Shown piece by piece: positions 1,792 to 48,113 of a DNA stretch of 64,000 nucleotides. The position numbers and the translations under genes are program-made. Positions within the stretch are counted from its first letter, which is position 1; each line of letters begins with the position of its first letter. This stretch comes from Armatimonadota bacterium (GTDB lineage: Bacteria; Armatimonadota; Zipacnadia; Zipacnadales; UBA11051), in NCBI GenBank assembly GCA_013178155.1, contig JABLXH010000033.1, positions 1-64,000 on the forward strand, in the 5' to 3' direction. The notes under the pieces were generated by a model. It was not told the DNA's origin, made no database searches, and saw nothing but the letters and a program-made list of their open reading frames with translations.

Positions 1792-1809
1792 CGACGGAGG
1801 CTCACACCC

Positions 1810-3795: not shown

Positions 3796-3803
3796 GGTCC
3801 CGC

Positions 3804-4463: not shown

Positions 4464-4484
4464 ACGCCAGGCCCGGATACCCAA

Positions 4485-4516
4485 CGACCCCGCGGTCCGT
4501 GTTGGACGCGGGGTCG
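4485..4516. terminator. bidirectional hairpin terminator between convergent genes
   Basis: A perfect 10-bp stem, CGACCCCGCG (4485-4494) with CGCGGGGTCG (4507-4516), and a 12-base loop. It sits between the plus-strand creatininase-family gene (ending 4463) and the minus-strand sialate O-acetylesterase (ending 4538). No T-run follows on either side, so intrinsic termination is likely but not proven. Confidence 0.55.
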
Positions 4517-4537
4517 CTGTGTCTGCGGCAGCCGTGC

Positions 4538-31489: not shown

Positions 31490-32032
31490 ATGCACCGAGT
31501 GGCTTTGACAGTCATCGTGGTCTTGCTTCTGCTTGCTGTCCTGGGGTGCAAGGGGCCCCAGCAGGCGGCGCAGACGGTACAGCCTGCAAAGGCTCCCGAA
31601 GTGGCGGCGGCCGAAGCGGGGAAAACGGTAGCACCCGCGGCGTCCAAACCAGAACCGGCCGGCGAGGAAGCTACCGCCACTGCCAAGGATGACGGCGCCA
31701 TACAGGTCGTGGCCTACTACCCCGACAACGAGGGCCACGCCAAGATCAAGGCGATGATCGAGGGCCTGAACACGAAGTACCCGGGCAAGGTCAAGGCCGA
31801 GTTCGTAGACTTCACCTCCGATGAGGGTTTCAAGCGCTGGCAGGACGATGGCCTCAGTTGCGGCGGCATCCTGATTAACGATGAGCAGACCTTCACCTAC
31901 GAGAAGGACGGGAAGACCACCGAGGTCACCTTCAAGATGGCCGAGGGTGGCGAGTGGACCAAAGCTGACCTCTACGCTGTGATAGAGAAGCTCATCGCTG
32001 AGCAGAAGAAAACGCAGAGCAAGCAGCAGTAG
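31490..32032 (+). CDS. thioredoxin-like-fold lipoprotein
   Basis: 180 residues: a lipobox LLAVLGC (Cys20), an Ala/Pro/Glu-rich linker to about residue 66, then a compact alpha/beta domain (IQVVAYYPDNEGHAKIKAMIEGLNTKYPGKVKAEFVDFTS) whose strand-helix-strand order resembles thioredoxin. It lacks CXXC; the only cysteine of the domain is Cys124 in GLSCGGILIN, at the place of a cis-proline loop. It ends with a WTKADLYAVIEKLI helix. ATG 31490 is nine bases from GGAGG; ATG 31481 and 31484 are too close. Lies between two PCG-type binding proteins, so likely part of the same transport or redox system. Function not known. Confidence 0.75.
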   Translation: MHRVALTVIVVLLLLAVLGCKGPQQAAQTVQPAKAPEVAAAEAGKTVAPAASKPEPAGEEATATAKDDGAIQVVAYYPDNEGHAKIKAMIEGLNTKYPGKVKAEFVDFTSDEGFKRWQDDGLSCGGILINDEQTFTYEKDGKTTEVTFKMAEGGEWTKADLYAVIEKLIAEQKKTQSKQQ

Positions 32033-32050
32033 TGGTGGCTGATGTTGTCT

Positions 32051-32082
32051 CGGCCGGGCGAGGGACATGCCTCGCCCGGCCG
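32051..32082 (+). terminator. strong intercistronic hairpin
   Basis: A perfect 13-bp stem, CGGCCGGGCGAGG (32051-32063) with CCTCGCCCGGCCG (32070-32082), and a six-base loop, just after the thioredoxin-like gene and 18 bases before ATG 32101. No T-run; it could partially terminate or stabilise the upstream RNA. Confidence 0.5.
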
Positions 32083-32100
32083 CATACCGGAGGCGTTCGT

Positions 32101-33681
32101 ATGTCCAAGCATTATCATCTGATTATCATTATCGGTCTCGCAGTCACCGTCGCTGGCTGCTCGAAGCCTGCCGACAAGCAGACCCAGACCCCGCCCAAGG
32201 GTGCTGGCCCTGCAGCGCGGGTCAGCGGTGAGATCCTCGTCTTCGTCCCCTGCGGAGTGGCTGGCCCTTACGGTGAGATCAAGAAGCTTTTCGAGGCCAA
32301 GTACCCCGGGGTCAAGGTCACGCAGGAGCTGGCCAACATTGACGTCCAGACGAAGCTCATTCTGGACGGCAAGGCTGCCCCTGACATGTGGATTGCCCTC
32401 GGCGATCGTGAGATGAATCGGGTCAAGGAGGCCGGCAAGGTCGCCGGCGAGCCAGTGACGTTTGCCTACAACTCCATCGCCTTTACCGTCCACAAGAACA
32501 ACCCCTGTGGCATCGCCTCGCTGCAGGACCTTACCAAGCCCTCCGTCAAGACCATCGCCCTGGCCACACCGGAAAACAGCTCCGGCTACTACGCCGAGCA
32601 GGCCTTCCGCCAGGCCGGCGTGTGGGAGCAGGTGGAGAAGAAGATCTGGTTGACGCCGGAGCCGGCACAGGTCAAGGTTGCCCTCTCCAGCGGCAAAGCC
32701 GAGGTCGGCGTCGTCTACTACCCGTGTGCCCGCGAGACGCGCATCATGGGTGGCGAACCGGAGGAGATGAAGGGTAAGCTGCAGCTGCTCAACAAGTTCC
32801 CGGAGGACGTCGCCAAGCCGTTCCCCGCTCAGGCTGCGGTGATTCAGGGCTGCGCTAACCCCGAGGGCGGCAAGGTCTTCCTGGACTTCATGCTCAGCGA
32901 CGAGGTTCAGGACGTCTGGGAGAAATGGGCTTTCGACCGCGCCAAGCAGCCTGCCAGTGGGAAGCGCGTGGTCCTGTACATGTACTGCGGCGCCGGTATC
33001 CGCCCGATGATGGACGCGGCCATCGAGGCCTTCAAGCAGGTCAGGCCCAACGTTCGCATCGACGTTGGATATGCTGGCTCGGGATGTCTCTTGGGGCAGC
33101 TCACGTTCGGCAAGCGGGGTGACCTGTATATGCCGGGCGAGGACTTCTACCTGAATCAGGCAATGGACCGCGGCTATATCGCGTCCTCCAAGCCCATCGG
33201 ATACTTTGAGCCAGTTCTGCTCGTCGCCAAAGGCAACCCGAAGAACATCAAGACACTTCAGGACCTCACGCGACCGGGACTCAAAGTGGCGCTTGGCGAC
33301 GCCAAGGCATGTGCAGTCGGCCTGACGGCTGATCGTCTGTTGGGGAAAGCGGGGCTTGCTGAAAAGGTGGAAAAGAACGTTGCAGTCAGGCACGGCAACG
33401 TGCCCGAGCTGGGCAATGCCGTGAAGTTTCGTACCATCGACGTGTCCATCGTCTGGAACGTGACTGCAACCCAGCAGCTTGAGGACTGCGACAGCATCCC
33501 GATTGACCGCAAGTACTATGAACCGTCCTTGGCGCCGATTGGTCTGCTGAAATTTTCAAAACACAGCGAGGAGGCGCAGGCTTTCATTGACTTCCTGGCC
33601 GGGCCGGAGGGCCAGAAGATCGTTGCTGACAGCGGCATGACGCCCGCCGCCGGAAGCAAGGCAGCAGGATCAGGGTCATGA
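32101..33681 (+). CDS. double-domain ModA-like solute-binding lipoprotein
   Basis: 526 residues: lipobox (VTVAGC, Cys20) and two consecutive type-2 binding folds. Domain one (about 45-285) opens with VFVPCGVAGPYGEI (Cys51) and has Cys209 in VYYPCARE, matching Cys65 and Cys223 of the 30570 protein; Cys136 and Cys251 are extra. Domain two (about 288-515) opens with VLYMYCGAGIRPMM (Cys296) and has GSGCLLGQL (Cys329), Cys404 and Cys463. Single-domain CGAGxRP proteins are annotated elsewhere as molybdate-type binding proteins. ATG 32101 follows GGAGGCG; its stop overlaps the next ATG (ATGA), so translation is coupled to the permease. Confidence 0.85.
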   Translation: MSKHYHLIIIIGLAVTVAGCSKPADKQTQTPPKGAGPAARVSGEILVFVPCGVAGPYGEIKKLFEAKYPGVKVTQELANIDVQTKLILDGKAAPDMWIALGDREMNRVKEAGKVAGEPVTFAYNSIAFTVHKNNPCGIASLQDLTKPSVKTIALATPENSSGYYAEQAFRQAGVWEQVEKKIWLTPEPAQVKVALSSGKAEVGVVYYPCARETRIMGGEPEEMKGKLQLLNKFPEDVAKPFPAQAAVIQGCANPEGGKVFLDFMLSDEVQDVWEKWAFDRAKQPASGKRVVLYMYCGAGIRPMMDAAIEAFKQVRPNVRIDVGYAGSGCLLGQLTFGKRGDLYMPGEDFYLNQAMDRGYIASSKPIGYFEPVLLVAKGNPKNIKTLQDLTRPGLKVALGDAKACAVGLTADRLLGKAGLAEKVEKNVAVRHGNVPELGNAVKFRTIDVSIVWNVTATQQLEDCDSIPIDRKYYEPSLAPIGLLKFSKHSEEAQAFIDFLAGPEGQKIVADSGMTPAAGSKAAGSGS

Positions 33682-34478
33682 CCGCGCGGCAGCGAGCCAG
33701 TGCGGCTCTGTTCCGCTACCTGGTCACCTCCGCCCTGTTCGTGATGGTCGGAGTCACCACTTTCACCCTGCTGAACATGGCGCTCTATGTCAAGCCTGGG
33801 GAGTTTCTGCAGGCCGCCTTGTCGCACGAGATCATCCATGCCGTCAAGTTGACGGCGGTCACCACCACCATTACCACAGGTATCGCGGTCCTGCTCAGCG
33901 TGCCGGCGGGCTATGCCCTGAGCCGCTACCGGTTCCCCCTCCACAATCTGGTGGATGCGCTGGTAGATCTGCCCATAGTCCTGCCACCGTTGATCGCCGG
34001 AATCGCGATGCTCATTTTTTTCGGGTCGCCTCTGGGCAAGTGGATCGAAGAGCACATCATGCCTTTCGTCTATACGACCCAGGGGATCATTCTGGCTCAG
34101 TTCGTGCCCGCGGGCAGCTTCTGTGTCCGGGCGATGAAGGCCGCCTACGACGGCGTTGACCCGCGACTGGAGCAAGTGGCCCGGACCCTGGGGTGCAATG
34201 AGAGGCAGACCTTCCAGCGGGTGACCCTGCCGCTGGCGCGCAACGGCCTGATCGCCGGGATGATCATGACCTGGTGTCGCGCAGCGGGCGAGTTCGGCCC
34301 CATCCTGATGTTCTGTGGCGCCACGCGGTACAAGACCGAGGTGCTGTCGATCGCGGTGTTCCTGAACATGTCCATTGGGCAGGTGGAGGTGGCGCTGAGC
34401 GCAACCATCCTGCTGGTGTTGATGGGCGTGGCGGCACTGCTGCTGTTCAGAAGGCTGGGGGGCCGGGGCATATGGTGA
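33678..34478 (+). CDS. ModB-like ABC transporter permease with extra cysteines
   Basis: 266 residues, about six transmembrane segments and the EAA-type loop typical of molybdate/sulfate importers (EQVARTLGCNERQTFQRVTLPLARNGLIAG). Cysteines at 149, 173, 200 and 213 include MTWCRAAGEFGPILMFCGAT, where ModB usually has RALGEFGATLMFAGN. The cysteines near the gate parallel those in the binding proteins. It starts at ATG 33678 overlapping the previous stop, and ends overlapping the next start (ATGGTGA). Forms the channel for the ATPase at 35245. Confidence 0.9.
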   Translation: MTARQRASAALFRYLVTSALFVMVGVTTFTLLNMALYVKPGEFLQAALSHEIIHAVKLTAVTTTITTGIAVLLSVPAGYALSRYRFPLHNLVDALVDLPIVLPPLIAGIAMLIFFGSPLGKWIEEHIMPFVYTTQGIILAQFVPAGSFCVRAMKAAYDGVDPRLEQVARTLGCNERQTFQRVTLPLARNGLIAGMIMTWCRAAGEFGPILMFCGATRYKTEVLSIAVFLNMSIGQVEVALSATILLVLMGVAALLLFRRLGGRGIW

Positions 34479-35248
34479 AGCTCCTGGGACTGGGAGCCCT
34501 GGCCGTGCTGCTGCTGGGCGGCTGCCGTCCCGGGACCGTGAGCATCAAGGTCCGCGGCGGGCCCTCGCTCAACGGCCTGTTTGCTGAGCTATCGCAGGCC
34601 TTCGAGGCGGAGAACCCCAGCCTGCGGGTGGACGGGGACTTCACGTGTCCGCCGTGTATCCTGCTGCAGCCGGGGAACCGCCCACCCATGTTCGATCTCT
34701 TCGTCGCGCTCGGCGATCAGGAGATTGAGTTTCTGCAGGCTCAGCCTAACGGCCTAGCTTTCGGGGAGCAGCGGACTCTGGGCCACACATCGCTGGTTCT
34801 GGTGACCTCCGCGCGGACCGATCCGCCGATCAGAACCCTGGCTGACCTGCACCGGGAGGGCCTGGGCCAGATTGGCCTGGGCGACCCGGAGCAGACGTCC
34901 GTGGGCTACTATGCCAGGAAGGCACTCCGGAAGGCTGGTCTGTGGGGCGAACTCAAGCCCCATTTCCTCTACGCCCGCAGTGGCTGTGAGCTCCTGAAGT
35001 GGCTGGCCCTGGGGCGCGACCTGGACGCCGCATTCGTCTATGGCATCTGCACCCGGGAGGTGGGCGGCGGGCTGCGTTCGGTGGTGGACCTGCCGGAGGG
35101 TAGCACAGAGCCGATCCCGGTCATCCTAACGGCTGTCCAGGGCTCCCGGCGGCCGGCCGAAGCGCGTCGGTTCATGGATTTCTGCGCCAGTCCGGCCGTC
35201 GCCGACATCCTGCGGCGCTATCTGGTCGAACCGGTGAAGCAGCCATGA
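34472..35248 (+). CDS. third ModA-like solute-binding lipoprotein (CPPC variant)
   Basis: 258 residues with lipobox LLGGC (Cys18). The first ligand loop reads VRGGPSLNG rather than PCG, but a CPPC motif (Cys59, Cys62) occupies the GS-x loop region, and Cys193 (VYGICTRE) lines up with Cys223 and Cys209 of its paralogues; Cys172 and Cys238 are extra. Between permease and ATPase genes, overlapping both (ATGGTGA at 34472, and its TGA overlaps ATG 35245). Such placement supports one transcript and one transporter. Why three binding proteins serve one permease is unknown. Confidence 0.8.
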   Translation: MVKLLGLGALAVLLLGGCRPGTVSIKVRGGPSLNGLFAELSQAFEAENPSLRVDGDFTCPPCILLQPGNRPPMFDLFVALGDQEIEFLQAQPNGLAFGEQRTLGHTSLVLVTSARTDPPIRTLADLHREGLGQIGLGDPEQTSVGYYARKALRKAGLWGELKPHFLYARSGCELLKWLALGRDLDAAFVYGICTREVGGGLRSVVDLPEGSTEPIPVILTAVQGSRRPAEARRFMDFCASPAVADILRRYLVEPVKQP

Positions 35249-36319: not shown

Positions 36320-37339
36320 TTAGCTACCAGGCGCCAGGTCCAGCAGCCGTGCCGCATTCCCCCAGAACAGCGCCCCGACGTCGCCGTCGTTCAGCTTCGC
36401 CAGCCGGGCCGCCGCCCGGACCGCGCGCAGGTTCTCCACGCCCACCAACGGCAATGCAAAGTCCGCCGCGTGCGCCGGTGCGTCGGGCGCATGCTCTTCG
36501 TCGAGCCACAGGAAGGTGTCCGCCACACTGAACGCCGTGCCGCGAATCTGCGAAACGCAGAAGTCCGACCCATACAACACCCGCCCGGTCCCCATGATCT
36601 GCAGGGCGGCCAGAACGCCCATCGCATTGCACACGGCCGAGGTGTCTACCCAGAGGTTCGGCAGGTCGGCAAGAGGCGGCAGACCCTCCAGCACGTGGTA
36701 GGGGTTGAAACCGCGCGCGCAGTGCGCCAGGACCAGTCGGGCCCGAGGGTAGCGTTCGCAGTAGCGGCGCACCCAGTGCTGGTTCAGGGGGTCGGCGATG
36801 CCCCGGGGCCGCACCAGATGCAACACCACGACCCACTCCTCGGCATCGGCCACCGCCATCAGCGACTCCGGCAGGTAGTCGGGGATGGCGGCGTCCCAGG
36901 TCCGCTCCAGCGCTGCGTAGAGATGATAAGGCTTGAGGCCCCGCACGCCCAGGCTCCGGCCCGTCTCTCGTACCTGGTCGGGGTCATCGTTGGGGGGTAC
37001 CACCATCAGGCAGGCTCCCAGCGGGTCCTGCGCCGCCTGAGAGGCTACCCAGGCGTTGGCGGCCGCCAGCGTGGCCTCGTCGGCGCCGGCGAAGGGGTAG
37101 GCCATGTGCAGAGCATGGAGTTCGCGCCCGGGAAGCAGCCGGCCCAGGTGTTCGCGGTAGGTCTGCAGCCCTGCCTCGAAAGGCCCGGTCACCACGATCG
37201 GCGGCGGCGAGGCCCACCACTCTGCCCGGTGCAGATGGGCGTGGGCGTCGAAGACGCGGTCCGGTACGAAGCCGCTCAGCTCACGCCCAATGACCTCGCG
37301 GTCGTCGTCGGTTACTTGCCAGTTGGCGCTCGTGGTCAC
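36320..37339 (-). CDS. amidohydrolase-family protein (TIM-barrel)
   Basis: 339 residues, PF04909-type amidohydrolase: FDAHAHLH (metal-binding HxH, about residues 29-36), the Lys/His segments LKPYHLYAAL and VVVLHLVRP, RLVLAHCARGF, and LYGSDFCVS with the Asp. This superfamily covers decarboxylases, lactonases and deacetylases. The start is GTG 37339, overlapping the stop of the uronate-isomerase-like gene (ATGTGACC), so it is translationally coupled. Last gene of the minus-strand sugar cluster. A lactonase or decarboxylase of a sugar acid is plausible but not shown. Confidence 0.85.
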   Translation of the reverse strand: MTTSANWQVTDDDREVIGRELSGFVPDRVFDAHAHLHRAEWWASPPPIVVTGPFEAGLQTYREHLGRLLPGRELHALHMAYPFAGADEATLAAANAWVASQAAQDPLGACLMVVPPNDDPDQVRETGRSLGVRGLKPYHLYAALERTWDAAIPDYLPESLMAVADAEEWVVVLHLVRPRGIADPLNQHWVRRYCERYPRARLVLAHCARGFNPYHVLEGLPPLADLPNLWVDTSAVCNAMGVLAALQIMGTGRVLYGSDFCVSQIRGTAFSVADTFLWLDEEHAPDAPAHAADFALPLVGVENLRAVRAAARLAKLNDGDVGALFWGNAARLLDLAPGS

Positions 37340-38667
37340 ATCCGGAGGGTCTCCCGGGGGCAGTCGTAGAGGATCGCCCGGGCGATCGCCAGGGCCTGAT
37401 CCTGGGTGTACTGCCCCTGCGCCACCTTCTGCGCCAGCACTTGCGCCAGCATTCGCCTCACCAGCGCCGCCTTGGCGTAAGCCCATTCCACGCAGTAGGC
37501 GTCGGAGAAGAAGCCTACCTGGCGGTTGAGGGGCAGCATGTCCAGGCGCTCCTCCATCACCTGCCGGATGGCGCTGGGGAAGAAGTTGTGCCACCAGTAT
37601 CCGGCCAGGGACAGGTTGGGTAGCTCGCGGCAAAGCGTGCAGAGCGCCTGGTTGGCATGGCGGCTGGCCAGGAAGCACTGGAAGCGCAGGCCGGGATGGC
37701 GAGCCACCATCTCGGCCAGTTGGCCGATGCTGCGCTGCGTCAGCCGACTGCCCGTCTCGAAGGGTAGCGGCTCGGCGCCGAAGCTGAACTGGAAAAGGAC
37801 CCGGTCGCCATGCACCTGCTCCAGCCATGCCAGAAAGGTCTCGTTCACGTAGGACGCATAGACATCTCTCTCGGCCACCCCGGCGTGGGGACGGCGTTCC
37901 AGCGCGGCCGCCATCCGGGACTCACTGACTGGGGCGAAGTCTATGTCGGTGGAGATGTGGGTCGCCATGGAGAGTATGCGGTCCACCGGCATGGCCTGCA
38001 CATAGTGCTCGACCGCCTGGTGCACGTCGTCCACGGAGCGGATGGTTCGCTCCGTCGGCGGGCGCGCACCGGACCCGATGGGCATCGGGCTGTCGGGCGT
38101 CTTGCCCCAGCAGCGCTCCAACTCGTACAGGGCCGTGTCGTACTCACCCCACTGTGTCCGCGTGAAGAAGGCCCACTCCAGCGAGTAAGCGAGGATGTCA
38201 TCGTCGGCTCCGTCGCCCCGTCGCGCCAGCTCGGTACAGAACCGCTCGATGCCGGCCCGGCGCATGACCTCACGCTGCCACGTTCGGTCGTCCGCGCGCT
38301 CGCGCACCAGGGCATCCAGGCGCTCCCAGTTGTCCGCCGTCACCGGCTCGTCCCAGCCGTAGAGGTCCCCGAGCGCGATGCGCACGCCCCAACTGATAGC
38401 CGTGTTGCGCACCACGGGCAGATAAGGGATCGCCTCCCGCAGTCGTGCGTGGGCTTCCTCGGTGCTGGGCCAGCCGGGGTACTGGGTCAGGCGGGCTCCG
38501 CTGGGGCAGCCGGCCGCATAGAGCTCGCTGATGGCCATGTGGTACAGCAGGATGTCATGCAGCCCCCGCGCGCCCAGTTTGCCGCCTACCAGGTGGGTAT
38601 GGGCATCCAGGAGAGCTGTCTCCAGCAGGCCCTCGTGCAGTTCGTGGACCAAGCCGTCGGCGTCCAT
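37336..38667 (-). CDS. glucuronate/uronate isomerase-like amidohydrolase-superfamily protein
   Basis: 443 residues. The N-terminal LLDAHTHLVGGK is a metal-binding HxH; AGYWWHNFFPSAIRQVMEERLDMLP and FFSDAYCVEWAYAKA near the C-terminus match the uronate isomerase (UxaC) family's WWF and late D/W motifs. UxaC converts glucuronate or galacturonate to the keto form. The similarity is by eye and partial, and length is slightly short of 470, so it may act on another acid. ATG 38667 is preceded by AAGGAG about ten bases away. Overlaps the amidohydrolase gene at its stop. Confidence 0.75.
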   Translation of the reverse strand: MDADGLVHELHEGLLETALLDAHTHLVGGKLGARGLHDILLYHMAISELYAAGCPSGARLTQYPGWPSTEEAHARLREAIPYLPVVRNTAISWGVRIALGDLYGWDEPVTADNWERLDALVRERADDRTWQREVMRRAGIERFCTELARRGDGADDDILAYSLEWAFFTRTQWGEYDTALYELERCWGKTPDSPMPIGSGARPPTERTIRSVDDVHQAVEHYVQAMPVDRILSMATHISTDIDFAPVSESRMAAALERRPHAGVAERDVYASYVNETFLAWLEQVHGDRVLFQFSFGAEPLPFETGSRLTQRSIGQLAEMVARHPGLRFQCFLASRHANQALCTLCRELPNLSLAGYWWHNFFPSAIRQVMEERLDMLPLNRQVGFFSDAYCVEWAYAKAALVRRMLAQVLAQKVAQGQYTQDQALAIARAILYDCPRETLRM

Positions 38668-38683
38668 GGCGATGAGGCTCCTT

Positions 38684-39535
38684 TCAGGCCCGTCCGGCGG
38701 CGCCCGTGCGACGGATCCACCCGGCAACGACGCCGGCCATGCCAGCCATCGCCTCGGCCTGTGCACTGGGAATCCAGGGGTTGCGGCCCTCTTGCCACTG
38801 CCGCAGCAGGGACTCGCGCACGCCGGCTACCAGGTCGGTGGCGACATTGACCTTGGCGATGCCCAGGCCGATGGCGCGCTGCAGGTCAGCGTCGGGCGTC
38901 CCGCTGCCACCGTGCAGGACCAGCGGCACCGGAACCGCCTGCCGCAGTCGCTCCAGGAGCGCAAAGTCCAGCCGGGGCAGACGGGCGTACTGTCCGTGGG
39001 CGTTGCCGATGGCTACGGCCAGGGCATCCACACCGGTGGCGGCGACATACTCGGCCGCCTCGGCGGGGTCGGTGAGCGCTGAGGCCTCGCCCCCCTCTAC
39101 CACACTCGCCTCCACCTTACCGACAACCCCGATCTCCCCTTCGACAGTGACCCCCAACGGGTGGGCCAGCGAGCAGACCTCGCGGAGCGCGGCGATGTTC
39201 TCCGCCAGGGGGCGGGTCGAGTAGTCCAGCATTACCGAGGTGTAGCCGGCGTCCAGACACTGCTGCACGCGCTCCAGCGACTCGCCGTGGTCAAGGTGCA
39301 GAGCCGCCTGTGCCGGGTAGCGCGCGATCAGCTCGTGGGCAGCGGCGGCCAGCGTAGACGGGGCGAGGCAGGGGAACTCGGCTGGCCCGTTCATCAGAAT
39401 CACCGGCGCGCGCATCTCCCGAGCCACCTGCAGCACCGTCTGCATGGCCTCCGGGCACCACACGCAGAAGCCGGGGACGGCGTAGCCCGCGGCGTAGGCC
39501 TCGGCGAGCAGTTCAGACATGGGTACGAAGGGCAT
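38684..39535 (-). CDS. class II fructose-bisphosphate/ketose-bisphosphate aldolase family protein
   Basis: 283 residues of the zinc-dependent class II aldolase family (FbaA, KbaY/GatY): AVPGFCVWCPEAMQ near the N-terminus, LHLDHGES (Zn His), EGEIGVVGKVE, and the LVLHGGSG and KVNVATD phosphate-binding loops. These enzymes split ketose or tagatose bisphosphates into two three-carbon units. ATG 39535 has GGAGG four bases upstream, which is short; the longer frame upstream is a shadow of the next gene. In operon with uronate-isomerase-like, dehydrogenase-like and cupin genes, so a role in splitting a modified sugar is plausible. Confidence 0.9.
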   Translation of the reverse strand: MPFVPMSELLAEAYAAGYAVPGFCVWCPEAMQTVLQVAREMRAPVILMNGPAEFPCLAPSTLAAAAHELIARYPAQAALHLDHGESLERVQQCLDAGYTSVMLDYSTRPLAENIAALREVCSLAHPLGVTVEGEIGVVGKVEASVVEGGEASALTDPAEAAEYVAATGVDALAVAIGNAHGQYARLPRLDFALLERLRQAVPVPLVLHGGSGTPDADLQRAIGLGIAKVNVATDLVAGVRESLLRQWQEGRNPWIPSAQAEAMAGMAGVVAGWIRRTGAAGRA

Positions 39536-39557
39536 GGAGCCTCCAGATAATGCAAAG

Positions 39558-40730
39558 CTATGACCAGGCTTCGTAGGCAGCGGCGACCCGGGCCACCAGC
39601 GGGTGGTCCGGGGGAAGTCCCAGGATCGCCGGGAGTGCTGCGTCCGCTCCGGTCGCGGCCAACTGCTCGCGCATTTCGACCGACTGCCGATCGTCGGGGG
39701 CGCTGTAATGCAGCGCCGCGGCCATGGCCAGTACCAGCTCGTCGCACGGCAGGCCGTACTCCACGGCCCACACCGCCGGCGCAGTGAGACGCTCCTGCCG
39801 CGAGAGCTTCCGCAACGGGTCGCGCACGACCCGCGACACCAGGTCCCTGATCTCGGCGACAGCACCGCGGGCGCCCAGCTCCAGGCCGTAGGCCCGGACA
39901 GCCCCCAGGTCTAGCCCATAGCGCCTTGCCACCACCTGGGCTAACTCCTCGATGGCGCCCAGGACATGGGCACTCACAACCGGGTCGGCAATCGCCTGGT
40001 GGATGTAGGTGTGGCCGCGGTGGAAACCCCAGTAGCCGCATACCGCGTGGGCGCCGTTGTGCATGAAGAACTTGCGGGCCAGGCGCGTCTCCTGGTCAGG
40101 GACCAACTCCATGGCCGGGAGCTCCGGCGCTGGTCCAACGAAGGCGCCAGCGTCCACCGTCCACTCGTTGTAGTCCTCGGCCACCAGGGCCAACGGGTTC
40201 CCCTCGGGCAGCGGCACCACGCGCGAGACCATGCAGTTGGGGAAGCCCACGCGTTCCGCCGCGTAGGCCCGTTGGTGCGGCTCCAGCAGCGCCAGAACCA
40301 GATCGCGCAGGACTGTGGAGCTATCCTGCATGTTCTCACAGCAGATGACATTGAGGGGCGTCACCACGCCTGCCGCCGCCCTTGCGGCGATGATCCGGGC
40401 CACCAGGGGCGCAATGTGCGGCAGGTTCTGGCTGAACACCGAAGTCAGGATAAGGGGGACGGTGAGGCCCTCCCGCACCACGGCTTCCACCTGATCGGTG
40501 TGATAGGCCCGGTAGCCGTCCACAGTGACCGTCCGCGCGGAATCAGCGCGACAGAGCCGCACCGTGTAGAGGCCCACGCGGCGCAGAGCCTCGATGAGCT
40601 CGCGGTTGTGGTCCACCAGGACCAGCTCCCAGCCGGCCTCGTGGGCCAGTTGCCCCAGATGCCCCCGACCGGTCGCTCCCGCGCCGATGATCATCACCCG
40701 CCGCGGCGCGGGGTCAGTCTCAGCGGCCAT
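39558..40730 (-). CDS. mannitol-1-phosphate 5-dehydrogenase (MtlD)-family protein
   Basis: 390 residues. Rossmann start VMIIGAGATGRGHLGQLAHEAG, then LNVICCENMQDSS, which is characteristic of MtlD, and NGAHAVCGYWGFHRGHTYIHQA. MtlD oxidises mannitol-1-phosphate (or a related polyol phosphate) with NAD. ATG 40730 is chosen because GGAGG precedes it by six bases; ATG 40736 is directly against that GGAGG. It overlaps the cupin gene's stop by 11 bases, so the two are coupled. Substrate is probably a sugar alcohol or acid phosphate specific to this cluster. Confidence 0.85.
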   Translation of the reverse strand: MAAETDPAPRRVMIIGAGATGRGHLGQLAHEAGWELVLVDHNRELIEALRRVGLYTVRLCRADSARTVTVDGYRAYHTDQVEAVVREGLTVPLILTSVFSQNLPHIAPLVARIIAARAAAGVVTPLNVICCENMQDSSTVLRDLVLALLEPHQRAYAAERVGFPNCMVSRVVPLPEGNPLALVAEDYNEWTVDAGAFVGPAPELPAMELVPDQETRLARKFFMHNGAHAVCGYWGFHRGHTYIHQAIADPVVSAHVLGAIEELAQVVARRYGLDLGAVRAYGLELGARGAVAEIRDLVSRVVRDPLRKLSRQERLTAPAVWAVEYGLPCDELVLAMAAALHYSAPDDRQSVEMREQLAATGADAALPAILGLPPDHPLVARVAAAYEAWS

Positions 40731-41073
40731 GGTCATCCTCCACCCGCACGACGTCATCCAGATGGGGCGTCTGCACCTCAAACAGGCGCACTTCCTCGAG
40801 CGCCTCGACGCGATGCAGGTCGCCCGGCTTGTGCTCCAGGATCGTGCCCGGGCCGACGATGTCGGTGTGCAGCGCCCCATCCGGCCCGGTGGACTCGATC
40901 CTGGCCAGGCCCGCGTCAATGTAAATGTGCTCTTGCTTGCGCTCATGGTACTGCAGGCTGCTGCGCTGACCCTTATGCAGGACAATGAGCTTCAGGCAGT
41001 ACTCATCGGTCACGGCGACCCAGAGCTCAGAGCCCCAGGGCTTTTCCACGCGCTTGACGGGGTCAACGATCAT
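40720..41073 (-). CDS. cupin-domain protein (mannose-6-phosphate isomerase type II-like)
   Basis: 117 residues, one cupin: KPWGSELWVAVTDEYCLKLIVLHKG, then YHERKQEHIYI (the HxH...E-type first metal motif), then GTILEHKPGDLHRVEA with the final His. Such small cupins resemble the cupin part of type II phosphomannose isomerases. ATG 41073 is preceded by AGGTGGGATG. First gene of the minus-strand cluster, 82 bases from the divergent RuBisCO-like gene. Could be an isomerase, epimerase or regulator; not decided by the sequence. Confidence 0.85.
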   Translation of the reverse strand: MIVDPVKRVEKPWGSELWVAVTDEYCLKLIVLHKGQRSSLQYHERKQEHIYIDAGLARIESTGPDGALHTDIVGPGTILEHKPGDLHRVEALEEVRLFEVQTPHLDDVVRVEDDHGR

Positions 41074-41155
41074 GCTATCATCCCACCTGTGGCCGCCAGT
41101 CGCGGCCCTTGCCTCTACCAGGAAAGAGTGTCAGCATCCCCCAAGGAGACGCCCC

Positions 41156-42580
41156 ATGCCCACCCCCGATGCCGTGCTGGCCGCCATGACCTATGACCTG
41201 GACGCTCGCGGCGAGATCATCCGGGAGTACGTGGGCGAACGTCTGGCGGCACGCGTCCCGGTGCAGGCTCCAGACCACATTGTCGGGCTGTACGTGGTGG
41301 CCTCCCGTAGCCACTCGGTATCCGCCGTCGGAGCGGAGATATCCTACCACATGACCTCCGGCGTGCGACACGCCCCGCCGGGCTCGCTGCTGGCCGCCTG
41401 CACGGGCGAGGTTCTGGATGCCGACCCCTGGGACCCTGCCGGCCGGGTCGGCATGGTCTGGGTCGGTTTCCCCGTCCGGATGATGCAGCAGGCCGGTGGG
41501 CGGGTCTTCTCCACGGACATCCTGCACCTCATGGCCGGCGAGGGCGCCTTTGGCCTGACCGACAACTCCGACATCCAACTGGCTCGTCTCGAGATTCCTG
41601 GTCCCGTGCTGGCGACCTTCCCGGGCCCGGCCTACGGCGCCCCTGGAGTGCGCCGCATCACCGCCTTCCCGCCCGGCGAGCCCATGTTCGGCACCATCCT
41701 CAAGCCCACCTCTGGCATTACGCCCCAGGAAGTAGGCCAGTTGGTCCGTGAACTGGCTGGTAATCCCCTGTTTGCCTTCGCCAAGGAAGACGAGAACCTC
41801 AACCCGGGAGTCACCTTCTGCCCGCTGGCGCAGCGCACCCGGGAGGCCGTGGCCGCGCTGCGCGACCGAGCCCCGGAACGCGGCGGACGCGGCTTGCTCT
41901 TTGCGCCCCACATCACCGCCCCACCGGACCTGCTGCGGCGTCACCTCGACATCGCCCTGGAGGCCGGGGCCAACGCGGTCATGTTCAGCGACCAGTTCGC
42001 TGGCGGCGCGACCCGCCTGGTGCGCGAGGCGACAGCAGGCCTTGAGCATCCCCCCGCGATCTACGCCCACAACAGCGGCATCTCCACCCGTACCCGGGCC
42101 ATCTGGCGGGAGGTGCTCGACCTGCTGGTCCGCCTGGACGGCGCGGACTTCCGCCAGACGGCTCCCGTCACGACCGCTGCCCCGCTGCTGCGCCCGTATG
42201 GCCGTGAATGGCTCAACTGCGAGACCGAGCTGACGCGCCCCCTGGGCCCCATCGCGCCCACCATGATCGCCCGGGCCGGGGGCCTGGACCAGGGCAATAT
42301 CATCCTGAACCTGCGCGATGCCGCCCAGCGAGGCTATGGCGACGGCGTGCTGTTCCTGGCCGGGTCGGCCATCAGCGGCATCAAGGACAGCGCCGGGAAG
42401 CCCTCGCCAGAGCTGGGCTCGGCAGCCATGCGTGAGGCCTTGGAGGCCTACACCACTGGTCGCGTCACGGGTGACGACCCGTCGCGGCACCTCGAAGAGC
42501 TCTACTCCTACGCTACCTCCGAGCGAGCTCCGGCACTCCGGACTGCTCTGGAGCAGCGGTACCCCCATCTGCGGCAGTAG
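41156..42580 (+). CDS. RuBisCO-like protein (form IV, RuBisCO large-chain family)
   Basis: 474 residues. The C-terminal TIM barrel is unmistakably RuBisCO-type: FGTILKPTSGITPQEV (Lys183, corresponding to Lys175 of the plant enzyme) and FAKEDENLNP with Lys210, Glu211, Asp212 and Glu213, at the carbamylated-Lys and metal-ligand position. YAHNSGIS and RLDGADF follow. The loop-6 GTxxGK motif needed for CO2 fixation is replaced (APVTTAAPLL), so it is not a carboxylating RuBisCO. RLPs act as enolases or isomerases in methionine salvage and as decarboxylases in apiose-type acid catabolism. ATG 41156 follows AAGGAG. Divergent from the cupin-led operon, and probably one pathway with it. Confidence 0.9.
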   Translation: MPTPDAVLAAMTYDLDARGEIIREYVGERLAARVPVQAPDHIVGLYVVASRSHSVSAVGAEISYHMTSGVRHAPPGSLLAACTGEVLDADPWDPAGRVGMVWVGFPVRMMQQAGGRVFSTDILHLMAGEGAFGLTDNSDIQLARLEIPGPVLATFPGPAYGAPGVRRITAFPPGEPMFGTILKPTSGITPQEVGQLVRELAGNPLFAFAKEDENLNPGVTFCPLAQRTREAVAALRDRAPERGGRGLLFAPHITAPPDLLRRHLDIALEAGANAVMFSDQFAGGATRLVREATAGLEHPPAIYAHNSGISTRTRAIWREVLDLLVRLDGADFRQTAPVTTAAPLLRPYGREWLNCETELTRPLGPIAPTMIARAGGLDQGNIILNLRDAAQRGYGDGVLFLAGSAISGIKDSAGKPSPELGSAAMREALEAYTTGRVTGDDPSRHLEELYSYATSERAPALRTALEQRYPHLRQ

Positions 42581-42613: not shown

Positions 42614-42642
42614 TTGACATGCGACGGCCATGAGGCTAAGAT
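42614..42642 (+). promoter_or_regulatory. sigma-70-type promoter of the sulfate transport operon
   Basis: TTGACA (42614-42619), 17 bases, TAAGAT (42637-42642). Transcription would start near 42649, about 70 bases before ATG 42719. A palindrome at 42643-42671 overlaps that start. Confidence 0.75.
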
Positions 42643-42671
42643 TGCACTCAGACGGGAGTGTCATGAGTGCA
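42643..42671 (+). promoter_or_regulatory. operator-like inverted repeat at the sulfate operon start
   Basis: TGCACTCA (42643-42650) and TGAGTGCA (42664-42671) are perfect 8-bp inverted repeats separated by 13 bases. The position right at the predicted transcription start suggests repressor binding; no known regulator motif is recognised. Confidence 0.5.
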
Positions 42672-42718
42672 CTATATGGACGCCCACGGGGGTGTCCGCT
42701 CGGGGAGATGTCCGCCAC

Positions 42719-43816
42719 ATGCGATCCGCGCTGCCGCTTCTGCTTCTCGCCCTCCTTCTGAGCCTGACCGTCATGTCGCTGTCCGGGTGTCCGCAGGCCC
42801 AGGAGCCGTCGGCAACGGCGCCGTCGGCGGCCGAGCCGGCCCCGGCGCCAGGCAAGGACATCGCCGGTGGCCCGGTGACACTGACGTTCGCGGCTTACAC
42901 CGTACCCAAGGAAGCGTACCAGAAGTCTGTTATCCCGGCCTTCAAGAAGTACTGGAAAGACAAGACCGGGCAGGATGTGGAGTTCGTGGAGTCCTACGAG
43001 GCCAGTGGGGCCCAGAGCCGGGCCATCTGCAGCGGGCTCGAGGCCGATGTGGCCTGCCTGTCCCTGGCAGCGGACATTGACCGCATCAAGGACAAGGGAC
43101 TCATCACCCACGATTGGACCTCCAAGCCCCACAAGGGCATGATCACCAACTCGGTCGTCGCTCTCGGCGTCCGTCTGGGCAACCCAAAGGGGATCACCAG
43201 GGATTGGGAGAGTATCGCCAAGCCGGGCATCGAGGTCCTTTGCCCGAACCCGGAGACCTCTGGCGGGGCGCAGTGGGACGTCAACGCCATCTACGGCGGC
43301 GGCCTCAAGGCCAGCGAGAAGAAGGGTAGGAAGGACGAGGCCTACGCTGCTGACCTGCTGAAGCGCGTCCGCCGGAACATCAAGGTCATGGACAAGAGCG
43401 GCCGCGCCTCGATGACCACCTTTGAGAAGGGCATCGGCGACGTGGTCATCACCTACGAGAACGAGCTTCTCCTGCGCAACATGGTGAGTGAGAAGTACGA
43501 GATCATCATCCCCGACGCCACGCTGCTCATCGAGAACCCGGTGGCCGTCGTGGACGTGAATGCCGACAAACATGGTGTGCGCGAGGTGGCTGAGGCCTTC
43601 GTGGACTTCCTGTGGACCACGGAGGCGCAGGAAGGCTTCGGCAAGTACGGCCTGCGTCCCGTCGATCCGGAAGTCTTCAAGCGGTTCGCCGACAAGTATC
43701 CGACCCCGCCGCAACTCTTTACCATGGAGTATCTCGGCGGGTGGGAGAAGGTGAACAAGGTCATCTACGGCCCCGATGGCCTGTGGACGAAGATCGGCCG
43801 TGAACTGACGAAGTAG
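42719..43816 (+). CDS. sulfate/thiosulfate ABC transporter substrate-binding lipoprotein
   Basis: 365 residues. Lipobox SLSGC (Cys24), an Ala/Pro linker, then the sulfate-binding fold: TFAAYTVPKEAYQKSVIPAFKKYW, ESYEASGAQSRAICSGLEADVACLSLAADID, CPNPETSGGAQWDVN and NPVAVVDVN. The SGAQSRA and TSGGAQW loops are the anion-binding segments of Sbp/CysP. It captures sulfate or thiosulfate for the permeases that follow. ATG 42719 is preceded weakly by GGGGAG; the frame to 42614 lies inside the promoter. A hairpin separates it from the permease genes. Confidence 0.93.
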   Translation: MRSALPLLLLALLLSLTVMSLSGCPQAQEPSATAPSAAEPAPAPGKDIAGGPVTLTFAAYTVPKEAYQKSVIPAFKKYWKDKTGQDVEFVESYEASGAQSRAICSGLEADVACLSLAADIDRIKDKGLITHDWTSKPHKGMITNSVVALGVRLGNPKGITRDWESIAKPGIEVLCPNPETSGGAQWDVNAIYGGGLKASEKKGRKDEAYAADLLKRVRRNIKVMDKSGRASMTTFEKGIGDVVITYENELLLRNMVSEKYEIIIPDATLLIENPVAVVDVNADKHGVREVAEAFVDFLWTTEAQEGFGKYGLRPVDPEVFKRFADKYPTPPQLFTMEYLGGWEKVNKVIYGPDGLWTKIGRELTK

Positions 43817-43852
43817 CCGCGCCTTCGGCAATAACTCATCGCGCGCCTCCTC

Positions 43853-43880
43853 TCCCGGGGGCTGCCGGCAGCCCTCGGGA
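43853..43880 (+). terminator. intercistronic hairpin in the sulfate operon
   Basis: TCCCGGGGGCTGCC (43853-43866) against GGCAGCCCTCGGGA (43867-43880): a near-perfect 14-bp palindrome with one mismatch, between the binding-protein and permease genes. Such structures commonly give more binding protein than permease. Confidence 0.55.
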
Positions 43881-43893
43881 GGGGAGCCGGGGG

Positions 43894-44775
43894 GTGTCAA
43901 CCCCAGAAACCGTGCGAGACCCCAACGTGACCACCGTCACCCTCAGCCAACACCCCACCTCCGGGCCCATCAACTGGGCCGCCTACACGGTGCGCGCCAC
44001 GGCCATCGGCTACATCGGTCTCCTGGTCTTGCTGCCGCTAGTGGCCCTGGCGGCCTCGGCAGGCCATGTGCCCCTGCGACAGCTCCTGGAGAGCCTGCGG
44101 CAGCCGGAGGCGACTCACTCCCTGGCTCTGACCTTCGGCACGGCCCTTGCCATGGCGCTCATCAACTCCGTCACCGGCACCGTGGTGGCCTACTGCCTGG
44201 TGCGCTATGAATTCACCGGCAAGTCGTTGCTGAATTCGCTGGTGGACCTGCCCTTCGCCATCCCGACAGTGGTCACTGGGCTGATGCTGGTGGTGCTCTA
44301 CGGTCCCGGCAGCGCTGTGGGCCATTTCCTGACCACCCACGGCGTCGAGGTGATGTACGCCAAGCCAGGCATTGTCCTGGCCCTGCTCTTCGTCACGTTC
44401 CCCTTCGTGGTGCGCGCGGTGCAGCCGTTGCTGCTGGAGATGGACCTGGAGACCGAGGAGGCAGCCCATACGCTCGGAGCGGGGCACTGGCTGACCTTCC
44501 GGCGGGTCACGCTCCCCACGGTCGCGCCGGGCCTGGCGACGGGAGTGACGCTCAGCTTCGCCCGCGCCCTGGGAGAGTTCGGCTCGGTGGTCATCGTGGC
44601 CGGCAACATCCCGCTCAAGACCCAGGTGGCCTCGGTATATATCTACGGCCAGATTGAGACCAGCCAACCCGAGGCTGCGACGGCCATGTCGCTGGTGCTG
44701 CTGGCAGCGTCCCTGATCTTCCTGGTCACGGTGGATTTCCTGCAGCGGAGGGGGGCCGCCACCCATGAGCGTTGA
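43894..44775 (+). CDS. cysT: sulfate ABC transporter permease CysT (CysU)
   Basis: 293 residues with six transmembrane segments and the importer EAA loop (EEAAHTLGAGHWLTFRRVTLPTVAPGLATG) followed by FARALGEFGSVVIVAGNIP, typical of CysT/CysU. The start is GTG 43894 preceded by GAGGGGAGCC; a second GTG at 43912 is possible. It overlaps the next gene by 11 bases. Makes the membrane channel with CysW. Confidence 0.93.
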   Translation: MSTPETVRDPNVTTVTLSQHPTSGPINWAAYTVRATAIGYIGLLVLLPLVALAASAGHVPLRQLLESLRQPEATHSLALTFGTALAMALINSVTGTVVAYCLVRYEFTGKSLLNSLVDLPFAIPTVVTGLMLVVLYGPGSAVGHFLTTHGVEVMYAKPGIVLALLFVTFPFVVRAVQPLLLEMDLETEEAAHTLGAGHWLTFRRVTLPTVAPGLATGVTLSFARALGEFGSVVIVAGNIPLKTQVASVYIYGQIETSQPEAATAMSLVLLAASLIFLVTVDFLQRRGAATHER

Positions 44776-45718
44776 GGTCGCGCCCGTCTTCCGCCGGGCC
44801 ACGTACAATCGCCGCGACACCACACGCGCGGGCCTCCTGGCCGGCACATGGGTCTACTTCGGCCTGCTCATTCTTCTGCCCATCGTCTGGATGCTCAAGG
44901 AAGCGCTGGCCCAGGGCCCGGCGTCCTTCCTGAACCAGTTCCGCCAGCCAGAGGTCCTCCATGCTTTCATGATGACCGCAGGGCTAACGGTGGGGGCTGT
45001 GGTCATCAACACCTGTTTCGGGGTCGTGGTGGCCTATGTGCTGGTACGGCAGCGCTTCTGGGGCAAAGGCCTGCTCAATGGCCTGGTGGATCTGCCCTTT
45101 GCCCTTTCGCCCGTCATCGCCGGCTACATGCTCATCCTGCTCTTTGGGCCCGATGGCTGGCTGGGCCCGACGGTGTCCCGCTTGGGCGTGAAGATTGTCT
45201 TCTCGTGGCCGGGGATGCTCCTGGCAACATTGTTTGTGACGCTTCCGTTTGTGGTGCGCGAAGTAGGCCCTGTGCTCGCCGAGATCGGGCGCGAGATGGA
45301 TGACGCCGCGGCAACGCTGGGCGCCGGACGTCTCTACACCTTCTTCGTGGTGACCATCCCCTCCATCAAGTGGGGGCTGCTTTACGGCATGACGCTGACC
45401 ATCGCCCGCGCCATCGGCGAGTTTGGGGCGGTTCTGGTGGTCTCGGGTAACATCATCGGCAAGACCCAGACGGCCACCCTGCTCATCCACCAGTCCATGG
45501 TGGACATGCAGGAGAACACGGCTTTCGCGGCCGCGGTAGCGCTGGCGCTCATCTCCTTCGTAGTGTTGCTGGCCTCCGAAGTCATCCGAGTGCGGTCCCA
45601 GCGGACCATCGAGGGCGGCCGTCCGGCCGGCATGCCCGGGGGCACAGAGGCGCCCGTGGCCGAGTACTCGCGCCGCGACGACCCCCAGGACACAGCGTGG
45701 CGCGGCGGCGTGGCATGA
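44765..45718 (+). CDS. cysW: sulfate ABC transporter permease CysW
   Basis: 317 residues with six transmembrane segments. The EAA loop reads MDDAAATLGAGRLYTFFVVTIPSIKWGLLYG, followed by ARAIGEFGAVLVVSGNIIGKTQTATL as in CysW. The C-terminal 40 residues form a hydrophilic tail. ATG 44765 overlaps the end of cysT. Partner of CysT in the sulfate/thiosulfate importer, 28 bases before cysA. Confidence 0.93.
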   Translation: MSVEVAPVFRRATYNRRDTTRAGLLAGTWVYFGLLILLPIVWMLKEALAQGPASFLNQFRQPEVLHAFMMTAGLTVGAVVINTCFGVVVAYVLVRQRFWGKGLLNGLVDLPFALSPVIAGYMLILLFGPDGWLGPTVSRLGVKIVFSWPGMLLATLFVTLPFVVREVGPVLAEIGREMDDAAATLGAGRLYTFFVVTIPSIKWGLLYGMTLTIARAIGEFGAVLVVSGNIIGKTQTATLLIHQSMVDMQENTAFAAAVALALISFVVLLASEVIRVRSQRTIEGGRPAGMPGGTEAPVAEYSRRDDPQDTAWRGGVA

Positions 45719-45746
45719 CTGGCAGCAACTGGAGAGCGAGGGAACG

Positions 45747-46784
45747 ATGACTGACCGCATCGAGCTTCGGATAGACGGCATCAGTTACCACTACGGCAAC
45801 TTCCCGGCGGTGGACCAGGTCAGCTTTGAGGTGCACGAGGGTGAACTCGTGACTCTCCTGGGTCCCAGCGGCAGCGGGAAGAGCACGATTCTGCGCCTGA
45901 TTGCGGGCCTGTTGCGGCCTTCGACCGGACGGGTGGAGATCGGCGGTCAGGACGCCACCCGCCTGCCGCCACAGCAGCGCAACGTGGGCTTCGTGTTCCA
46001 GCAGTATGCGCTCTTTCGGCACATGACGGTCTTTGACAATGTGGCCTTTGGGCTGCGCGTTCGCAAGTGGCCCAGAGAGCGCATCGCCGAACGCGTGGCC
46101 GAGTTGCTGCGCCTGGTGCAGCTACAGGGCGAGGAGCACAAGCGCCCGGCCCAGCTCTCTGGCGGCCAGCGACAGCGCGTCGCTTTGGCCCGGGCTCTGG
46201 CCCCCAGCCCCCGCGTGTTGCTGCTGGACGAGCCCTTTGGCGCCGTGGACGCCAAGGTGCGCCTGGAACTGCGCGAGTGGCTGCGGCGGCTGCATGACGA
46301 CTTCCACGTCACCTCTGTCTTTGTGACCCATGACCAGGAGGAGGCGCTGGAGCTGTCCGACCGGCTGGTCGTACTCGACCACGGTCGCGTGGAGCAGATT
46401 GGCACGCCTGACGAGATCTACGACCAGCCAGCCACGCCCTTCGTCACCAGCTTCATCGGCCCCGTCAACCAGCTATGGGGCGAGGCCGGCGGGGGCATTG
46501 CTCACGCGGGCGGTTTCGCCGTGCCGGCGGCCTGGGCCAACGGCGACCGCTGCCCGGCGTTGGTGATGGTGCGGCCCGCAGATGTGCGGCTGATCCCTGG
46601 CACGAACGCCACGGTGCGGCGGCTCGTCCACATTGGCGACCTGGCCAAACTGGAGCTGGCGACCGCCGATGAGCAGTTGCTGACCGTGCACTGTTCGCGC
46701 CAGCGGGCGGCCGAGCTCAACCTGCAGCCGGGCGTCAGGGTGGGCACGGAACTGTTGCGTGGCTGGGCCTACCCGAGGGGATAG
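45747..46784 (+). CDS. cysA: sulfate ABC transporter ATPase CysA
   Basis: 345 residues. Walker A GPSGSGKST, Q-loop VFQQ, signature LSGGQRQR, Walker B VLLLDEP, H-loop VTHDQEEA, then a TOBE-like domain. Energises CysT/CysW. ATG 45747 is preceded by GAGGGAACG. Last gene of the operon, followed by the hairpin and T-run at 46798-46819. Confidence 0.94.
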   Translation: MTDRIELRIDGISYHYGNFPAVDQVSFEVHEGELVTLLGPSGSGKSTILRLIAGLLRPSTGRVEIGGQDATRLPPQQRNVGFVFQQYALFRHMTVFDNVAFGLRVRKWPRERIAERVAELLRLVQLQGEEHKRPAQLSGGQRQRVALARALAPSPRVLLLDEPFGAVDAKVRLELREWLRRLHDDFHVTSVFVTHDQEEALELSDRLVVLDHGRVEQIGTPDEIYDQPATPFVTSFIGPVNQLWGEAGGGIAHAGGFAVPAAWANGDRCPALVMVRPADVRLIPGTNATVRRLVHIGDLAKLELATADEQLLTVHCSRQRAAELNLQPGVRVGTELLRGWAYPRG

Positions 46785-46952: not shown

Positions 46953-48113
46953 ATGAACGACCGCGAGCGTTTTCTGGCCGTCTGCCGGGGCGAGAAGCCC
47001 GACTACGTGCCTATCTTCGGCTTCCCGGGATCACCGGGGATGAGCCGGGGGGCGATGAAGTACACCCACGACCGCCTGGTGGCGACGGGCATGCCAGCGC
47101 ATGTGGGCGGGTGCTACATCAACTACGTCAGCCAGGATGTCGAAAGCTGGTACCGCTACTGGGGCACCACCGGCCCCATCGGCCTGGACTTCGGCCTGGC
47201 CTGGGGCGCGGAGGGGTTCCGGACCGAGGTGCGCGTTGAGGACGGCTTTGAGATCATCGAGGATGAGTGCGGAGCCATCACTCGCCAGGTCCTGGAGAAT
47301 GACATCACCTACAGCATGCCCGAGTTCATTCGCTACCCGGTGCGCGATTGGGACTCCTGGCTCTTCTACAAGCAGCGAACCACGCCACGCCAGTTCATGT
47401 CACGCGAGGACATGGAAGCCAACTGCCGCCGGTTCGACGACCGAACCATGCCCCTGGTCATCTCCGCCGGCAGCACCTACGGTACCGTCCGCGGCCTCAT
47501 GGGTACGGAGGCCGCGAGCCTGGCCATATATGACGCGCCCGACCTGATCCATGACATCGTCCAGACCACGTTGCAGCGTGTGCGTGATGACGCTTTTCCG
47601 CTCATCGAGCGCTTGCGCCCCGAGGTCGTCGGCATTGGTGAGGACCTCTGCTACAACCACGGCATGCTGCTCTCTCCCGCCCAGTTCGAGGAGTTCTGCG
47701 GTGACTACTACCGGGAGGTCTGCGACTGCGCCTTCGCCAACGGCGTGGAGCTGGTGGCCGTGGACACCGACGGCAACGCCATGGAGTTCACTGGCGTGGC
47801 AGCCGCCTGTGGCGTCAACGCCATTCATCCCTACGAGGCCAAGGCCGGCAACGACCTGTTCGCCCTCAGAGACGAGTTCCCCGAGTTCGTGCTTTTCGGC
47901 TGGCTGGAAAAGGAGTGCGTCAACGAGGGTAACGAGGCCATGATCGAGCCCGAGATCATGGGCAAGGTGCCGCCACTGCTGGCACGGGGGCGCTATTTCC
48001 CCAACGGTGACCACGGTATCCAGCCACCCGTGACCTTCCCTAACCTCTGCCGGTTCATGACGCTCCTGCACGAGGTCTGCGACAACCCCGAGGGGGAGTT
48101 TCCTCGCATCTAG
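46953..48113 (+). CDS. uroporphyrinogen decarboxylase (URO-D) family protein
   Basis: 386 residues with MNDRERFLAVCRGEKPDYVPIFGF at the start, PEVVGIGEDLCYNHGMLLSP, and a C-terminal FPNGDHGIQPPVTF. A close paralogue of the 11055 gene: both have NA-x-PYE-x-x-x-GND after the DSDG/DTDG motif. The HxC zinc site of methyltransferase relatives is replaced by VAVDTDGN. No good ribosome site precedes ATG 46953. It is 10 bases upstream of another URO-D gene that does keep HSC, and the pair precedes the glucuronidase-like gene. Function unknown; a sugar-acid-related lyase is only a guess. Confidence 0.85.
   Translation: MNDRERFLAVCRGEKPDYVPIFGFPGSPGMSRGAMKYTHDRLVATGMPAHVGGCYINYVSQDVESWYRYWGTTGPIGLDFGLAWGAEGFRTEVRVEDGFEIIEDECGAITRQVLENDITYSMPEFIRYPVRDWDSWLFYKQRTTPRQFMSREDMEANCRRFDDRTMPLVISAGSTYGTVRGLMGTEAASLAIYDAPDLIHDIVQTTLQRVRDDAFPLIERLRPEVVGIGEDLCYNHGMLLSPAQFEEFCGDYYREVCDCAFANGVELVAVDTDGNAMEFTGVAAACGVNAIHPYEAKAGNDLFALRDEFPEFVLFGWLEKECVNEGNEAMIEPEIMGKVPPLLARGRYFPNGDHGIQPPVTFPNLCRFMTLLHEVCDNPEGEFPRI

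Follow-up and report, generated by a model that had tools for sequence, protein, structure and literature searches.

A RuBisCO-like protein of Armatimonadota with a divergent active site in a conserved gene neighborhood: a candidate enolizing enzyme of a proposed sugar route

We analyzed a six-gene locus at positions 36320-42580 of a 64,000-nucleotide stretch (hereafter the window; GenBank assembly GCA_013178155.1, contig JABLXH010000033.1, positions 1 to 64,000) from an Armatimonadota metagenome-assembled genome of 5.53 Mb, in which a RuBisCO-like protein (RLP) is encoded divergently from a run of five genes. Our tentative proposal, which we hold at somewhat below even confidence, is that this locus specifies an isomerase-kinase-aldolase sugar route, similar to the Embden-Meyerhof-Parnas (EMP) pathway, that leads to dihydroxyacetone phosphate (DHAP), and that the RLP would serve in it as a Mg2+-dependent enolizing (carbonyl-shifting) enzyme together with a cupin and an MtlD-like oxidoreductase; the reactions, their order and the substrate are what we infer from the genes.

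All six genes were found where an earlier note on the window sequence had located them, with gene starts inferred from open reading frames (ORFs). The RLP (474 aa, 41156-42580, plus strand) is separated by 82 bp, start codon to start codon, from a cupin of the mannose-6-phosphate isomerase C-terminal type (117 aa, 40720-41073), which is followed on the minus strand by an overlapping gene for an MtlD-like oxidoreductase resembling mannitol-1-phosphate 5-dehydrogenase (39558-40730), a class II ketose-(bis)phosphate aldolase of GatY/KbaY-like type 22 bp beyond it (38684-39535), a UxaC-like protein of 4I6V type and probable sugar isomerase after a further 16 bp (37336-38667), and an Amidohydro_2 protein (36320-37339, PF04909 61 bits) whose gene overlaps the UxaC-like gene by 4 bp. 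This layout agrees with the earlier description of a five-gene operon divergent from the RLP, its members overlapping or at most 22 bases apart.

The RLP is the sole PF00016 (RuBisCO_large) match in its genome, and its score of 46.5 bits against a cut-off of 30.1, together with its fold, places it in the RuBisCO superfamily. It falls far under the cut-off of every NCBIfam RLP or RuBisCO model, reaching 69.5 bits against 700 for the OiaX model NF042437 (Rhizobium OiaX, as a control, scored 785), 67 against 497 for rubisco_III, and 26.8 against 513.6 for the MtnW model TIGR03332. An AlphaFold2 model computed from 24 sequences (predicted local distance difference test, pLDDT, 89.6; predicted template modeling score, pTM, 0.91) gave Foldseek matches to RLPs and RuBisCOs of the Protein Data Bank with template modeling scores of 0.67-0.75 by query (TMq) and up to 0.84 by target (TMt), the best being Chlorobium and Rhodopseudomonas RLPs, MtnW and archaeal RuBisCO at ~20-23% identity. 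The window RLP is accordingly modeled with a RuBisCO fold.

We judged the pocket by alignment to form I RuBisCO, whose numbering we use for the RuBisCO residues. The window RLP keeps K175, K201, D203, E204 and H294; its K210-E-D-E segment corresponds to K201, D203 and E204, and K210, D212 and E213 are invariant across clade 1, the group formed by this protein and six relatives. Loop 6 (GTVVGKLEG, containing K334) is absent and RQTAPVTT stands in its place, with P, S or G in the K334 column of clade 1. The earlier note had read both features, the retained Lys210-Glu-Asp-Glu and the missing loop 6, in the same way. T65, W66, N123, R295, H327, K334, S379, G403 and G404 are substituted in every clade-1 row, and the phosphate-site residues of RuBisCO (T65, W66, G403, G404 and R295, H327, S379) are therefore lost from the clade, with the exception of G381, retained in all rows but one. 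Among the invariant clade-1 residues absent from the RuBisCO pattern are R314, R318, R333, Q334, R346, W352, R373, D378 and Q379. This residue pattern indicates that the RLP retains the metal/enolization core and lacks the CO2 lysine and the usual phosphate clamps, such that the parts required for CO2 fixation have been lost; the active-site lysine K210 is predicted to be carbamylated.

A tree of 34 rows, built without a reference sequence of the Rhodospirillum rubrum-type RLP isomerase, recovered clade 1 with support of 100/100 on a stem of 2.4 changes per site, joined to two further Armatimonadota clades (100/98). Form I, the MtnW-like group (100/97) and the apionate-type group (99/100) all fall outside this assemblage. 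In approximately unbiased (AU) tests, forcing clade 1 together with the apionate-type group was borderline rejected (p = 0.0496), and forcing it together with the MtnW-like group was likewise borderline (p = 0.052), so the exact position of the long clade-1 branch is tentative. Across 291 Armatimonadota genomes, which also underlie the linkage and co-occurrence counts below, clade 1 occurs in 8 and clade 2 in 3, which together make up the 11 RLP genomes referred to below. Three clade-3 RLPs, from three other genomes, carry K201->S and H294->E and are otherwise well conserved; these proteins are perhaps metal-free or non-catalytic.

The earlier note had proposed comparing the RLP with MtnW and the isoapionate enzymes, and by tree, residues and family cut-offs it is of neither type, the AU result against MtnW being borderline. 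We consider it very unlikely that the RLP is a methionine-salvage enolase of unusual sequence. An RLP beside a cupin does recall MtnW with acireductone dioxygenase, the metal site is kept, MtnW structures are among the Foldseek matches, some MtnW-like rows also lack the loop-6 lysine, and the AU test gives no firm rejection; however, the protein scores far below the MtnW cut-off, clade 1 is separate from the MtnW-like rows (100/97 and 100/98) and has other neighbors, the cupin matches the phosphomannose isomerase (PMI)-type family PF01050 rather than acireductone dioxygenase, and no further methionine-salvage gene was recognized nearby.

Somewhat more room, though still little, is left for a reading in which the RLP, like OiaX in the breakdown of apionate, decarboxylates a sugar acid that is branched or bears a 3-oxo group, with the MtlD-like enzyme making the keto acid, the RLP removing CO2 and the aldolase releasing triose phosphate. 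Apionate-route RLPs are known to decarboxylate 3-oxo-isoapionate-4-phosphate or to act on it by transcarboxylation/hydrolysis (PMC6302742). The window RLP shares with OiaX/OiaT the RuBisCO fold, the K201/D203/E204 metal site and a setting among sugar-degradation genes, with a dehydrogenase and kinases in the neighborhood. Unlike OiaX/OiaT, clade 1 is a separate group whose joining to the apionate-type group was borderline rejected, it lacks K334, R295, S379, G403 and G404—OiaX keeps K334, R295 and the glycines—and the OiaX model scores it at a tenth of the cut-off. The plasmid RLPs of the apionate-type group that we examined stand mostly next to an annotated four-carbon acid sugar kinase, a typical neighbor that is not seen at this locus. 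Decarboxylation in the manner of OiaX, which the earlier note had suggested, is therefore not supported by the residues of clade 1, although a branched sugar or sugar acid may still be the substrate. We give close to, if just short of, an even chance to the broader view that clades 1-3 represent a branch of the RuBisCO superfamily whose function has yet to be described, in which clade 1 would carry out a new ketose or sugar-acid reaction, with the anion held by an arginine-rich site (R314, R318, R333, R346, R373) that replaces the phosphate sites, within an unreported isomerase-kinase-RLP-cupin-dehydrogenase-aldolase pathway.

The gene neighborhood supplies the second line of evidence. The RLP, cupin and MtlD-like genes are adjacent in 8 of the 11 RLP genomes, in either of two orientations (codirectional or divergent), with adjoining cupins 47-83% identical to that of the window; the MtlD family is common, but homologs sharing 63-66% identity with the window protein were confined to RLP genomes. 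The UxaC-like gene (60-100% identical) is present in 10/11 RLP genomes, these ten coming from ten families, and in 17/291 genomes overall (hypergeometric p = 2e-13, or 9e-8 counted by family, with shared ancestry uncorrected). RLP and UxaC-like gene share one locus in the window and in four relatives (G270, G271, G229 and G249). For instance, a single locus of G270 reads SSF symporter-UxaC-DeoR / PfkB-RLP-cupin-MtlD (the symporter assigned by homology to locus L120), and contig ends in G001 suggest, across a presumed join, the order RLP / cupin-MtlD-aldolase-UxaC-PfkB. In that genome the UxaC-like gene (contig C404) is split into three overlapping frames by a frameshift that is perhaps an assembly error. 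The adjacency in 8/11 genomes and the co-occurrence in 10/11 rule out grouping by chance, and the RLP gene set is conserved, linked and catabolic-looking; the situation that would have overturned the earlier note, an RLP grouping with MtnW in an operon unlinked among relatives, was not what we found. Plasmid searches with the UxaC-like protein, the cupin and the MtlD-like protein gave no similar cluster among the matches listed.

The closest solved structure to the UxaC-like protein is 4I6V (E = 1.4e-23), to which, to our knowledge, no function has been assigned. Compared with Escherichia coli UxaC, the window protein retains H33 and H35 (the HxH motif), W381 (of the WW pair) and D412, and lacks two residues of the canonical uronate isomerase: H297 is Ser and R414 is Tyr in 11/11 homologs compared. 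Family scores are low, at 16.8 bits against the 25-bit Pfam cut-off for PF02614 and 36.5 against 387 for a second UxaC model. The two substitutions make a uronate substrate doubtful, and the uronate route of the earlier note is not upheld. A hexuronate route, in which UxaC would isomerize glucuronate or galacturonate, the MtlD-like enzyme would act like UxuB/UxaB, the aldolase would split a phosphorylated ketouronate into DHAP and tartronate semialdehyde, and the RLP would have a side role, consequently seems improbable to us: a UxaC-like protein, a mannitol-dehydrogenase-family enzyme and an aldolase do occur together, with a PfkB kinase beside the UxaC-like gene in relatives, but the missing H297 and R414, the sub-threshold UxaC scores and the short, mannitol-1-phosphate type of the MtlD-like protein (33 bits against 603 for the UxuB model) all speak against it.

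In 11/17 genomes a PfkB kinase gene either adjoins the UxaC-like gene or is only a few genes away from it. Aldolase genes likewise occur next to the UxaC-like gene or close by, of class II in the window, G001 and G283 and of DeoC/LacD fold in G046 and G131, and an SSF symporter adjoins it in G270 and G283. The pairing of the same isomerase and kinase with two unrelated aldolase types speaks well for an isomerase-kinase-aldolase route. The window aldolase (PF01116, 265.8 bits) belongs by score to the class II fructose/tagatose bisphosphate aldolase family and, aligned to tagatose-bisphosphate aldolase 1GVF, has the catalytic Asp, the metal-binding His residues and the HGGSG/NVATD phosphate motifs, from which DHAP would be the expected product. 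These motifs agree with the earlier idea of a route to triose phosphates, and the earlier interpretation as a whole is partly supported. The MtlD-like protein (PF01232/PF08125; 3h2z, E = 1.6e-61) shows the K-x4-N-x2-H catalytic motif, judged by eye, and belongs to the Pfam domain family, while its 256.8 bits stay below the cut-off of 368 for the best NCBIfam model of mannitol-1-phosphate 5-dehydrogenase (class PRK02318); by type it is a short, sugar-phosphate enzyme. The cupin (PF01050, 32 bits) is similar to the isomerase domain found in type II mannose-6-phosphate isomerases. The amidohydrolase is present in the operon as the earlier note had it but lies outside the set conserved in relatives, its close homologs (52-60%) occurring only in three genomes without an RLP; it is probably a bystander, and we rejected it as a pathway lactonase because those homologs sit in RLP-free genomes.

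Under the route that we propose, an aldose (or sugar acid) taken up by the cell would be turned into a ketose by the UxaC-like metal enzyme and then phosphorylated by a PfkB kinase, whose gene most relatives have in the locus, and the class II aldolase, or a DeoC/LacD-fold aldolase in some RLP-free relatives, would split the ketose phosphate into DHAP and an aldehyde. The RLP, as a carbamylated-Lys/Asp/Glu Mg2+ enzyme, would probably enolize a ketose or keto-acid intermediate and shift its carbonyl, with the PMI-like cupin isomerizing or epimerizing, and the MtlD-like enzyme oxidizing or reducing, the same intermediate; together these three would bring a sugar that the aldolase cannot cleave into the aldolase branch. 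We favor enolization and carbonyl shift over carboxylation or OiaX-like decarboxylation because the proton-transfer residues are kept and K334, which OiaX keeps, is lost. The Rhodospirillum RLP isomerase and MtnW, which carry out enolization/carbonyl-shift chemistry, are the model for this step, and like them the window RLP would probably enolize its substrate without CO2. Sulfoglycolytic EMP and tagatose/fucose-type routes likewise have a single locus that combines an isomerase, a PfkB-type kinase and an aldolase of class II or DeoC/LacD fold; they differ in that the isomerase here is non-homologous and the RLP-cupin-MtlD trio is added.

Several observations weigh against this proposal. The window operon has no adjacent PfkB gene, the best in its genome being 38% identical and located elsewhere, and the UxaC-like gene occurs without an RLP in 7 genomes, implying that the RLP is dispensable for the UxaC-like module. 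The RLP of G050 has no adjoining cupin or MtlD gene; those of G267 and G040 stand with pyruvate dehydrogenase (PDH)-type E1 subunits and an SIS isomerase; and that of G288 is followed by an acetolactate synthase (ALS)-like thiamine pyrophosphate (TPP) enzyme that is non-canonical by score (~264 bits against the TIGR00118 cut-off of 538). In G029 the RLP-cupin-MtlD trio adjoins a true ilvD, and in G033, which has no RLP, the cupin-MtlD pair adjoins ilvB (true by cut-off) and an ilvD-family gene, so that in both genomes the pair sits beside branched-chain amino acid genes; we withdrew a reading of the IlvD and TPP neighbors in these genomes as sugar-acid enzymes on the basis of the NCBIfam scores. 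The RLP may therefore serve several pathways, or some neighbors may be incidental. A related alternative, which we consider unlikely, is that RLP-cupin-MtlD and UxaC-kinase-aldolase are two separate halves acting on different sugars and brought together by horizontal transfer or regulation: the 7 genomes with a UxaC-like gene alone and the placement of RLP and UxaC-like gene on different contigs in G288 and G040 favor it, whereas the co-occurrence in 10/11 RLP genomes from ten families, and the presence of both halves in one locus in the window, G270, G271, G229 and G249, do not.

Other features of the RLP loci bear noting. A promoter-like site lies upstream of the window RLP (41054-41081, plus strand; TTGACG-16-TATCAT, 10/12 with TG, a consensus match alone). 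A sulfate/thiosulfate-type ABC transporter (a solute-binding protein, two permeases and an ATPase; 42614-46784) directly follows the RLP gene, an arrangement that we did not observe for any other RLP; the transporter has a promoter-like site to itself (42614-42642), which suggests a separate unit. On the other flank, a 549-aa ORF (32032-33681) has two tandem ModA-like solute-binding domains and is followed by a second ModA-like gene (34274-35248) with ModB/ModC-type genes. A sulfur link through these flanking sulfate/molybdate-type transporters was rejected, since none was seen in the relatives' loci and the promoter-like site points to a separate unit. Further along the window, a URO-D-family gene (46953-48113) is followed by an uncharacterized gene (48124-49170); in loci L049 and L053, URO-D-like genes are likewise found close to either the RLP or the UxaC-like gene, but the window has further ones elsewhere too. 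In G249, the UxaC-like/URO-D genes are separated from the RLP by a gene for a xanthine-dehydrogenase-like molybdenum hydroxylase (L053:6628-9075), which suggests that this locus includes an oxidation step. A different RLP, encoded on plasmid pVNTG1 of Vibrio nigripulchritudo (1692-6311), directly follows two TPP/E1-type subunits and precedes an FGGY kinase, echoing the E1-RLP arrangement of G040 and G267 and possibly marking a further RLP pathway.

A literature search, with subscription papers mostly outside it, returned no report of an RLP with this gene set. Few RLP reactions are known, namely those of the methionine-salvage enolase, the methylthio-sugar isomerase and the apionate-route decarboxylase and hydrolase. 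For the partner protein, annotation as UxaC probably names the wrong substrate. If the clade with its rebuilt active site and conserved gene set holds, it would add one more RLP reaction and another reuse of the RuBisCO scaffold, and would point to a predictable nutrient for the mostly uncultured Armatimonadota.

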